64,000 nt of DNA from Sporolactobacillus sp. THM19-2 (GTDB lineage: Bacteria; Bacillota; Bacilli; Bacillales; Sporolactobacillaceae): assembly GCF_004153195.1 (NCBI RefSeq), contig NZ_SEMC01000003.1:124001-188000 (forward strand), in the 5' to 3' direction. Each line of letters begins with the position of its first letter. Positions within the stretch are counted from its first letter, which is position 1. Shown piece by piece: positions 27,308 to 59,510 of this stretch. The notes under the pieces were generated by a model. That model saw nothing but the letters and a program-made list of their open reading frames with translations, ran no database searches and was not told the DNA's origin. The position numbers were made by a program, and so were the translations under genes.

Positions 27308-27490
27308 CTTCAATCAGTGGGAGTTTCGGGCACACAGGACGTGCTTGTGCAGGCGTTGCGACAGGAGGCCCTCGTTTTTAGCCTGCATCATCTCCCACTG
27401 ATTGTTCGTTGAACCCATCAGATTGCTGCGTCCGCCATCTGGGCATGCTCTTTTACCCTGAGGTGGGGGGGCTTACTGCCTGTTCATACG
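27308..27490 (-). repeat. Third, diverged copy of the dispersed repeat (inverted)
   Basis: Read on the minus strand it repeats the order of the 9394-9695 units: a GAACaGGCAGTAAG segment, CCCCCACCTCA, a CATGCCC segment, GATGGGTTCAACGAACAATCAGTGGGA in outline, and a closing TCCCACTGATTG. The two arms of the last hairpin (27311-27322 and 27393-27404) are separated by about 70 extra bases. It lies between two converging transcription units, the small plus-strand gene and fliT. Confidence 0.75.
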
Positions 27491-56942: not shown

Positions 56943-57281
56943 TTAGCCTATCCGCTGACCGCCACTGCTGATGGCATCAATTTCTTTTCCCAGTTCCAGG
57001 CGCTTCTGTTTCAGGGCAAAAAGCTGCGCGGCGATCGCATCTGTTGGTTTAATCATATGGGTACGGATTTTCTGACAGAGCGTGAGCAGCGCGCGGCTGA
57101 CTTCCACATACTGGCGGCGAAGGGCGTGTTCATACCTCTCTGTCGAACTCTTGAAAGCCTTCAGTAACTCAGTCAGCTTGACCCGAATCTGTGCCTGCCA
57201 TTCTTTATCCTGTAATTCACCGGCGTAAAGGTATAAATCAAGATAGTTGTCAATCTGCGCGTATTCTGCGTCCCTGATCAT
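56943..57281 (-). CDS. Hypothetical helical protein of 112 residues
   Basis: Strongly helical, soluble, without cysteine-rich or membrane features: starts MIRDAEYAQIDNYLDLYLYAG and continues ELLKAFKSSTERYEHALRRQYVEV and LFALKQKRLELGKEIDAISSGG. Good ribosome site (AAGGGGG). The pattern of long amphipathic helices resembles export chaperones, but I cannot name a family. It is transcribed away from the palindrome array at 57325, which may control it. Confidence 0.7.
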   Translation of the reverse strand: MIRDAEYAQIDNYLDLYLYAGELQDKEWQAQIRVKLTELLKAFKSSTERYEHALRRQYVEVSRALLTLCQKIRTHMIKPTDAIAAQLFALKQKRLELGKEIDAISSGGQRIG

Positions 57282-57324: not shown

Positions 57325-57507
57325 AAGCGGAGATTTTCCGCTTAAATGCAGAATAGAACGGGCTTCAGCGTATCATAAGCGGAATTTTTCCGATTAGGCA
57401 ATGAAAGATCCCCCCCTTTCATTTTTTTGAACCAATAGGCGGAATACCTCCGTCTGTTGAACCTGCTTTATATTCTTTTTACTAAGTTAAGCAGATTTTT
57501 TCGTCTA
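57325..57507. repeat. Array of four spaced palindromes upstream of the hypothetical gene
   Basis: AAGCGGAgattTTCCGCTT (57325-57343), AAGCGGAatttTTCCGATT (57377-57395), AGGCGGAATACCTCCGTCT (57437-57455) and a degenerate AAGCAGATTTTTTCGTCTA (57489-57507) are spaced about 52, 60 and 52 bases. Each is a 19-base dyad with GCGGA and TCCGC arms. Regular spacing near five DNA turns suggests repressor operators or a repeat cluster rather than terminators. Confidence 0.6.
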
Positions 57508-57523
57508 CTCGTTTACAAAGCCT

Positions 57524-57653
57524 CCTGGCAAGCGATGCCGGGCCTGTTTTCTGCGCAACGCCCATGAACCGGCTGTTGGTCAGGCAAGTTGTCTCTATCT
57601 GCACAAAATTTCACGGCTCACAAGCCGCGTCCTTCAGGGCGTGGTGGTTGAAC
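57524..57653 (+). mobile_element. Candidate IS200/IS605-type non-autonomous element (hairpin ends only)
   Basis: A left hairpin CCTGGC/GCCGGG (57524-57542) and a right hairpin CCGCGTCC-TTCA-GGGCGTGG (57625-57644) followed by TGGTTGAAC have the form of IS200/IS605 ends; the right end resembles the 3' hairpin of TnpB guide RNAs such as that of ISDra2 (hairpin then GGTTCAA). No transposase or TnpB gene is present in the window, so it would be a solo end pair or MITE. The gap 57654-57690 holds nothing else. Confidence 0.4.
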
Positions 57654-57690
57654 ATCCCTGACGGAGTAGCGTTACCCAGGCTACCTGCTG

Positions 57691-57733
57691 AAAAAAAACG
57701 ATTATCTTTCTTTTATCCAAGAAAAATAATCGT
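57691..57733 (-). terminator. Terminator of the EAL-PilZ operon
   Basis: On the minus strand ACGATTATTTTTCTT and AAGAAAGATAATCGT form a long stem followed by eight T residues. It lies about 155 bases after the PilZ gene. Confidence 0.85.
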
Positions 57734-57888
57734 CGGGTTTTTACGTTTATTTTCCTTATCTCTCAGATTAGACATCTGCTGGAATTGACACCATACACCT
57801 TTTTCGATGCTGGTTGTCGGGTTTCATCGGGCCAGTCCCTCCGCCACTCTTGATAAGAATTATTAAATTTATATTACCTTACTATGAA

Positions 57889-58479
57889 TCAGGCCATTCT
57901 GTCAATGGAAAGAGCTTTCGGTTCATCACCTGAATGTCGGCGGACTGATATTTTCTCCAGTTCCTTGTGGTTCATATAATTCTGAATTCTAGTTTCTTCC
58001 GCTGCAGAAAGTCGCTGAAAAGCAACACCATATTCGACCGCTGTCCTCCCATGTTTCACCTTTTTCCAGGCAACTGTTCCCTGCATATGTATCCGTGTCC
58101 CCTCATCCATCGGGAATGAGACATAGATAAGCACTTCCTCCTTTATCGGAAAATTAAGCGGACAGGAGAGCCTGATGCCGCCAAGGCTGATGTCTTTTAT
58201 CTTTGCATCTACATTTTTATTATTGAGTTTACGGAGACTGCGATCTCCGAAATCAAGGATCCGCACCTGGCACGGTTCATCCACTGCCAGCCGGTAGTCC
58301 CTTCGCCTGTCCGGGACCTTTTTTGATTTGGCTTCAAAAATCTGTTGTTCCAGTGTTCTGCCGGAAAATTCCTTTTTCCTGACTGCACGTCTGATGTGGA
58401 TGTAGCACAGGGTGACCATACAGAACAGGACGAGATCCAGACCTGATAAAAGCCAGATCCATGCCTGCAGACTAAGCAT
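57889..58479 (-). CDS. PilZ-domain c-di-GMP receptor with N-terminal membrane anchor
   Basis: 196 residues. One membrane helix at 8-30 (LLSGLDLVLFCMVTLCYIHI), a basic linker, then a PilZ domain from about 62: the c-di-GMP-binding arginines are in DRRRDYRLAVDE and the second motif in KDISLGGIRLSC. Its start overlaps the EAL gene by eight bases. PilZ proteins of this type act as brakes or switches of flagellar motors or polysaccharide synthases. The domain pair with a phosphodiesterase shows a c-di-GMP control unit next to the flagellar genes. Confidence 0.85.
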   Translation of the reverse strand: MLSLQAWIWLLSGLDLVLFCMVTLCYIHIRRAVRKKEFSGRTLEQQIFEAKSKKVPDRRRDYRLAVDEPCQVRILDFGDRSLRKLNNKNVDAKIKDISLGGIRLSCPLNFPIKEEVLIYVSFPMDEGTRIHMQGTVAWKKVKHGRTAVEYGVAFQRLSAAEETRIQNYMNHKELEKISVRRHSGDEPKALSIDRMA

Positions 58480-59200
58480 GCCCACGCACCGCCTTACCCA
58501 GCAGATGCGGACGACCGAGCGCATAGCCCTGCGCATAATGAATGCCCATTTCTCTGATGTAGTGAATATCCTTTGCGGTTTCAAGGCCCTCAAAAATCAG
58601 TTTTGTATGAAATTTTTCACAAAATCGGATAAGAAAAGCGACATACGCCTGTTTCTTCTCCGACGTTCTCAGGTTAATCGAAAAATAACGGTCCAGTTTA
58701 ATATAATCGGCATCAATATCGATCGTCCGATTCATGTTATCTGACCCTTTACCAAAATCATCCACGGCGATCCGTATGCCGGCCTGCCTGATCAGCTTCA
58801 GAACGTCCTGCAACCCGGACAGGTCATCAATACGCTCGTTCTCAACCATCTCGAAAACCAGCTGTCCGGCAAGAAACGGATAAGTCCCGATCAGATCCTT
58901 GATCACGGAAACCAGACCGGCGTGCAGCAAGGTCGAAGGATAAATATTCAGGAATAACTTTTTCCCCTTATCCTTCTGCCCGGACTCGGCGAATGTACGG
59001 ACGGCTTTTTGTACGGAATGAACATCCAGTTCATAAAGTCTTCGTTTCTTTTTGGCCAATTGATAAGCCTCCTCAACAGTCGAAAAAAGAGGCGACCTGA
59101 ACAAGGCTTCAAAACCTTCAATCGTCCGGTTCTCCAGATTAAAAATGGGTTGAAAATGGTGAAAAAATTTCCCTTTTGTAATGAAATTAACCCACAACAC
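58472..59200 (-). CDS. EAL-domain c-di-GMP phosphodiesterase
   Basis: 242 residues from a GTG at 59200 with GGGAGG nine bases upstream; the longer open frame begins inside the leader. The stand-alone EAL domain retains the metal and catalytic residues: EAL in GFEALFRS, N in LFLNIYPS, E in FEMVENERI, DD in AVDDFGKGSDN, K in YIKLDRYF, E in FEGLET and Q in AQGYALGRP. It should therefore hydrolyse c-di-GMP to pGpG. There is no GGDEF or membrane sensor domain. It lies behind a c-di-GMP riboswitch, a likely feedback loop. Confidence 0.9.
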   Translation of the reverse strand: MLWVNFITKGKFFHHFQPIFNLENRTIEGFEALFRSPLFSTVEEAYQLAKKKRRLYELDVHSVQKAVRTFAESGQKDKGKKLFLNIYPSTLLHAGLVSVIKDLIGTYPFLAGQLVFEMVENERIDDLSGLQDVLKLIRQAGIRIAVDDFGKGSDNMNRTIDIDADYIKLDRYFSINLRTSEKKQAYVAFLIRFCEKFHTKLIFEGLETAKDIHYIREMGIHYAQGYALGRPHLLGKAVRGHA

Positions 59201-59292
59201 AAAAACGCTCCTCCCTGAATATGAAGAAAAACTTGCCAGTCTGACTCCTGACTGCAAAAGTGATCCGGTCTTTCATTTCCTCCCAAAAGACC

Positions 59293-59327
59293 AAAAAAAC
59301 GGCGCACCGAAAAACTCGGCGGCCGCT
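59293..59327 (-). terminator. Riboswitch-associated terminator
   Basis: On the minus strand CGGCCGCCGA pairs with TCGGTGCGCCG and is followed by TTTTTTT, between the c-di-GMP aptamer and the EAL gene. It can be the expression platform. Confidence 0.8.
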
Positions 59328-59337
59328 GCGGCTCTTC

Positions 59338-59425
59338 CTGGATTTCGGTAGCCCGGCGATCCTGGCTTTCGCTTTAGACCCGCGGCTTTGCGACCCTGCC
59401 TTTCAGCAGGTGTGCTCTTTTCGTC
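59338..59425 (-). ncRNA. c-di-GMP-I (GEMM) riboswitch
   Basis: On the minus strand the aptamer shows a first hairpin CCTGC-TGAAA-GGCAGG with its GAAA tetraloop, the invariant GGTCGCAAAGCC junction, GTCTAAAG as tetraloop receptor, and the closing GGGCTACCGAA. These are the conserved elements of GEMM-I aptamers. It precedes an intrinsic terminator and the EAL-PilZ operon, so c-di-GMP controls transcription of its own phosphodiesterase and receptor. Confidence 0.87.
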
Positions 59426-59510
59426 GGAAAATTATTTAATTTAGCATTCACATGCTGACACATACAGGTCTTTATGTCAATGACTTTTGACCTGTTTTTC
59501 TTCATAAAAA

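Follow-up and report, generated by a model that had tools for sequence, protein, structure and literature searches.

A c-di-GMP-I riboswitch, a stand-alone EAL protein and a PilZ protein form a conserved cassette in Sporolactobacillus and other Bacilli: a probable OFF switch

The Locus and Its Genes

The window analyzed here, a 64,000-nucleotide stretch of the genome of Sporolactobacillus sp. THM19-2, a lactic-acid bacterium that forms spores, carries on its minus strand the series flgN-flgK-flgL-DUF6470-fliW-csrA, followed by a c-di-GMP-I aptamer, an intrinsic terminator, a gene for an EAL protein, a gene for a PilZ protein, a SAM riboswitch, and an open reading frame of 112 codons. The initial annotation placed a riboswitch cassette at 57889-59425; such a cassette is present, although position 57889 is the end of the PilZ gene rather than a start. 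All features described below lie on the minus strand unless stated otherwise.

The aptamer (59344-59426) is matched by the covariance model RF01051 over its full length (1-87 of 87) at 73.6 bits (E = 1.5e-12 in a cmscan of the whole window), against a gathering score of 35 bits, so that the c-di-GMP riboswitch proposed earlier passes the scan suggested as its check. In a numbering that we take from Vc2, both the G at position 20 that indicates c-di-GMP rather than c-AMP-GMP and the C at position 92 are present as ligand contacts, and the motifs GCA and ACCGAA are found at the aligned ligand-contact places. The base 5' of G20 is A in place of G, a substitution seen in the window species alone among 26 aptamers compared. 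By every sequence criterion, the element is a c-di-GMP-I riboswitch. Downstream lies an intrinsic terminator (59293-59327), likewise anticipated in the initial annotation, which consists of a 12-pair stem-loop at 59300-59327 followed by seven U residues at 59293-59299. Between this terminator and the EAL gene, an open reading frame of 29 codons (59187-59276) overlaps the EAL start; it is open in both strains of the window species and was seen only there. Its reading as a leader peptide was dropped because the Shine-Dalgarno spacing is poor and the frame occurs in one species only.

The EAL gene (58472-59200, with a start at GTG 59200 or TTG 59197) encodes a predicted stand-alone phosphodiesterase of 241-242 residues that matches PF00563 at 153.6 bits (E = 7.6e-45); no curated NCBIfam equivalog was reached for it. 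Its best solved relative is BlrP1, to which it aligns one to one at the active site, and residues Glu-30, Asn-84, Glu-116, Glu-119, Asp-146, Asp-147, Lys-167, Glu-203, and Gln-223 match conserved active-site positions of that enzyme, the catalytic residues being those known from EAL enzymes in general. The catalytic residues claimed for this protein, and the metal-binding ones, are all in place, and it presumably hydrolyzes c-di-GMP. Compared by sequence with other EAL proteins of this kind (the EAL domain of BlrP1, Lmo0131, and YkuI), it shares the fold family and the metal and catalytic residues but is only about 240 residues long and has no sensor domain.

The PilZ gene (57889-58479) begins with an ATG that overlaps the EAL stop codon (CATGCTTAG) and encodes a protein of 196 residues matching PF07238 at 59.9 bits (E = 3.3e-16). 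The two motifs typical of PilZ receptors for c-di-GMP, RxxxR (Arg-59, Arg-63) and DxSxxG (Asp-96, Ser-98, Gly-101), are both present, so that the protein is predicted to bind c-di-GMP. A single hydrophobic segment at the N terminus, with hydropathy of up to 2.0 over 19 residues, agrees with the membrane anchor that had been proposed; this segment and the EAL partner gene distinguish the protein from known receptors.

In the 3.0-Mb genome as a whole, the GGDEF domain occurs five times, EAL three times, and PilZ twice; there are also two c-di-GMP-I riboswitches, the second of which precedes the gene of a secreted SH3-like repeat protein. From this set of domains and riboswitches it follows that the organism has c-di-GMP signaling and c-di-GMP to sense.

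Neighboring Elements

Thirty nucleotides after the PilZ stop codon lies a SAM (S-box) riboswitch (57753-57859; RF00162, 84 bits), absent from the initial annotation, whose own terminator (57697-57734) is the first terminator candidate after the PilZ gene on that strand. A role for this riboswitch in the circuit was considered and dropped; in relatives it precedes either a small LysR-type gene or the family of the 112-residue protein, and we take it as a neighbor rather than as part of the c-di-GMP loop. The equivalent SAM riboswitch stands directly before a small LysR-type gene in genome G020 and shortly upstream of one in G022, G016, and G014. In the window, no gene follows its terminator for about 415 nucleotides, and the window species seems from these comparisons to have lost the LysR-type gene. 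Proteins of this type, about 85-100 residues in length and composed of a helix-turn-helix without an effector domain, adjoin the cassette in many Sporolactobacillus (as at loci L083, 1452-1706 and 2683-2931; L084, 8450-8704; and L098, 8021-8269).

The 112-residue frame (56943-57281) has no Pfam or NCBIfam match and is kept at the same place in most Sporolactobacillus. Genes of the family often follow a tandem pair of SAM riboswitches, with a third further upstream in L098, L099, and L100, and they probably form a SAM-controlled gene family. On the plus strand, the first 94 bases of a non-coding repeat (57470-57695) have several copies of 75-83% identity elsewhere in the genome; the remainder presumably looks like the end of an IS200/IS605-type element, including a stretch similar to omega-RNA. 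A Bacillaceae-1 RNA (27331-27396, 42.8 bits) is also found in the window.

Conservation of the Cassette

Most Sporolactobacillus species have the cassette, situated between csrA and either hag or a gene with a SAM riboswitch. The order csrA, riboswitch, EAL, PilZ recurs in G018 (the same species as the window genome, G000), G012, G013, G015, G019, G021, and THM7-7, and partial copies occur in G009 and G010. Outside the genus but within the family, the cassette of two genera (G002, G004, G005) is located away from csrA. Genome G002 retains the order riboswitch, EAL, PilZ; in G004 and G005, the EAL and PilZ proteins are joined in one open frame of about 380-396 residues that has no membrane segment.

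Across 397 genomes of the order, a profile search returned many stand-alone EAL proteins. Twenty loci outside the family were checked, these being the top-scoring EAL matches and not a random sample; a c-di-GMP-I aptamer lies upstream of the EAL gene in 12 of them (one aptamer being a GGC variant), and in eight of these 12, from seven families, a PilZ gene directly follows. Together with the family of the window, the cassette therefore occurs in at least eight families, its own and at least seven others of the order. This breadth of conservation supports the view that riboswitch, EAL, and PilZ constitute a functional unit, and the fusion of the two proteins, along with their repeated pairing, argues that enzyme and receptor work together. 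The architecture described for the locus at the outset, in which the signal controls both the enzyme that degrades it and the receptor that reads it, is thus upheld by comparison as far as the arrangement of its parts is concerned.

An Alternative Helix and the Sign of the Switch

In the extracted leaders, the aptamer ends in CCGAA (59344-59348 in the window), and UUCGG or a close variant follows roughly 30 to 50 nucleotides downstream, which would allow an alternative helix, here termed T1. In Vc2, c-di-GMP pairs with the base that corresponds to the first C of CCGAA, so that T1 should be excluded while the ligand is bound. The partner strand in the window, UUCGGUG (59305-59311), comprises the 5' half of the 3' strand of the terminator and two bases of its loop, so that T1 (-8.8 kcal/mol; p = 0.007 against shuffled platforms) and the terminator compete.

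Complementarity between the two strands is exact in 18 of 20 leaders, the variants being UUUGG in G010 and CUUUGG in L120a; exact UUCGG itself is absent in several of the 13 aptamer leaders from other families (L120a again illustrates this). Duplex energies in the family set range from -6.1 to -10.6 kcal/mol, and comparison with dinucleotide shuffles of the platform gave p values from 0.007 to 0.45, below 0.05 in 6 of 13 leaders. The pair next to C92 is A-U in seven of the 20 leaders, G-C in six, G-U in three, and a non-pair in four, a pattern of covariation with a permutation p of 0.005 when the relatedness of the leaders is ignored. The same pair differs between the two strains of the window species, being A-U in G000 and G-C in G018.

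Two kinds of expression platform follow these aptamers. In the seven leaders of one group (the window, G018, G015, THM7-7, G002, G004, and G005), the terminator forms in every case with the aptamer closed, a state approximated by folding the expression platform alone, and a terminator can be discerned downstream of each of the 13 other-family aptamers (that of L124 having been assigned by eye). In six Sporolactobacillus leaders (G012, G013, G019, G010, G021, and G009), no terminator separate from the aptamer is apparent. Here, CGCC pairs with the Shine-Dalgarno sequence GGCG, which has a probability of 0.21-0.33 of being unpaired when the aptamer is closed. Under either platform, termination or masking, the ligand should lower expression.

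These observations suggest how the switch may operate. Without ligand, the free 3' strand of the aptamer, CCGAA, would pair with UUCGG of the platform to form T1. This helix would, both in the window and in leaders of other families, take up part of the terminator hairpin and allow RNA polymerase to read through; in the Sporolactobacillus subgroup, the strand that T1 would sequester is the one that otherwise would hide the ribosome-binding site. Ligand binding would lock the 3' strand within the aptamer, and the terminator or the masking helix would form. At low c-di-GMP, the phosphodiesterase would be made and would keep c-di-GMP low, while high c-di-GMP would remove both the phosphodiesterase and the PilZ receptor, so that the circuit would behave as a self-reinforcing latch. 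The comparative evidence favors OFF as the sign of the switch, and we consider an OFF switch on the EAL and PilZ operon, with positive feedback on c-di-GMP, to be the probable reading.

Some features of the leaders complicate this picture. Equilibrium folding of the window leader gives T1 a probability of about 0 because the helix is greatly outweighed by the terminator (platform ΔG of -18.9 kcal/mol); antitermination must therefore be kinetic, or else the window copy is locked. Moreover, in some leaders UUCGG falls mostly within the terminator loop, so that T1 and the stem might coexist there.

Alternative Explanations

Whether the window copy is in fact locked bears on a broader possibility, namely that the cassette was inherited but that in this species it is locked or decaying, through a constitutive terminator or a poorly binding aptamer, and that the genus is in the course of losing the cassette genes. 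The very strong terminator and the A beside the ligand-contacting G20, confined to the window species, are in line with such decay, as are the lesions found among relatives. In G018, which belongs to the window species, one base is deleted from the PilZ gene; frameshifts affect both genes of G015 and the EAL gene of G019; G010 has lost most of EAL; the PilZ gene of G009 is truncated; G020 lacks both riboswitch and PilZ; and the EAL proteins of G021 and G009 lack the active-site residues Asn-84, Glu-119, and Glu-203. Bc1 of Bacillus thuringiensis, which belongs to the c-di-GMP-I class, offers a published precedent, as it appears to be locked in the OFF state in vivo (PMC11218506). Yet both frames of the window are open with all active-site residues kept, T1 stays paired across the two strains through a coordinated change from A-U to G-C, and some of the frameshifts fall within homopolymers, where they could reflect errors of assembly, so that we regard a locked or decaying copy as unlikely. 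The EAL proteins of G021 and G009 (L091, L092) are a separate matter: their frames are open and still stand behind a riboswitch, and they may serve as receptors rather than enzymes.

An ON switch, by which c-di-GMP would raise its own phosphodiesterase and so maintain homeostasis, has the appeal of negative feedback, the usual logic of metabolite switches, and Bc2 of B. thuringiensis is an ON switch of the same class (PMC4933901). In such a scheme, T1 and the U run after it would themselves be the terminator in the six leaders that have no independent hairpin, where T1 is close to a short run of four or five U residues, and the ligand would prevent its formation. These U runs are short, however, and the CGCC/GGCG pairing in the same leaders fits masking of the Shine-Dalgarno sequence, while the leaders of the window and of other families have a complete downstream terminator that can form with ligand bound. 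T1 as a terminator in all leaders was rejected for the window, which has a separate one; it stays a rival reading for the six-leader subgroup, and an ON switch appears improbable to us. A further possibility is that the riboswitch belongs to the csrA and flagellar transcription unit and has flagellar control as its purpose; csrA and flagellar genes do adjoin it, as the initial annotation had pointed out in proposing motility control, and in THM7-7 (L003) the cassette is flanked by csrA and hag, as it is in G015, there with a gap. The window has no hag gene next to the cassette on its downstream side, and linkage to csrA is confined to the genus Sporolactobacillus, the cassette being elsewhere, far from csrA, in genera g3 and g5. 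In addition, a -35-like hexamer, TTGACA (59475-59480), between csrA and the window aptamer was read directly and is probably the cassette's own promoter, although it is weak, with no good -10 after it in the window, and was missed by a consensus promoter scan. A fuller pair, TTGAA(T/A)-N17-(x)AAAAT, can be read between csrA and the aptamer in several relatives. Such pairs suggest a separate transcription unit, and most leaders seem to have a promoter of their own at this place. The argument for motility from gene neighborhood is weakened accordingly, and membership in a flagellar unit is very unlikely. PilZ proteins and c-di-GMP have a role in motility elsewhere, and it is only on this background, rather than from the neighborhood, that a motility role for the cassette is plausible; its output may lie in motility or at the cell surface.

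Relation to Known Systems

The aptamer is like others of the c-di-GMP-I (GEMM-I, RF01051) class in its sequence and structure, ligand-contact bases, and terminator-type platform, and differs in the unusual A beside G20 and in controlling a phosphodiesterase together with a PilZ receptor. The OFF logic predicted here is that of the class I switches of Clostridioides difficile (PMC6366702, PMC6200980), where all functional members have been described as OFF by termination (PMC6366702), with Cdi-1-1 discussed as an apparent exception (PMC6200980). One of these, Cd1 (Cdi-1-3) of the flgB operon, likewise terminates transcription on binding c-di-GMP and is linked to the motile state, but it controls flagellar genes instead of an enzyme and a receptor for its signal. 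A gene for a GGDEF-EAL phosphodiesterase in C. difficile is down 5.1-fold as c-di-GMP rises, by a mechanism that was not stated (PMC6200980). In B. thuringiensis, which belongs to the same order as Sporolactobacillus, the class I switches Bc2 and Bc1 have platforms of the terminator/anti-terminator type (PMC4933901, PMC11218506); Bc2 controls an adhesin (PMC4933901) and Bc1 precedes a chemotaxis receptor (PMC11218506), so that neither stands before an EAL or PilZ gene. The PilZ proteins of the two relatives in which EAL and PilZ are fused depart from that of the window in this fusion and in having no membrane segment.

No description of a riboswitch-EAL-PilZ module was found in open papers, which were the scope of the search, and open papers on Sporolactobacillus riboswitches or on c-di-GMP switches before phosphodiesterase genes gave no match to it. 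It is a possibility, which we put forward tentatively, that a c-di-GMP-I OFF switch, a stand-alone EAL protein, and a PilZ protein, the latter two sometimes fused, make up an apparently undescribed and widespread module of the Bacilli that acts as a bistable latch at the RNA level, and that in Sporolactobacillus the platform has moved from terminating transcription to blocking access to the ribosome-binding site, with the anti-helix retained.

What the cassette offers is an enzyme, a receptor, and a switch in one transcription unit, retained in at least eight families, for which the predicted sign amounts to a self-reinforcing latch. If the OFF sign is true, it would provide a concrete and readily testable example in which an RNA makes a second messenger bistable, in species with few c-di-GMP enzymes.
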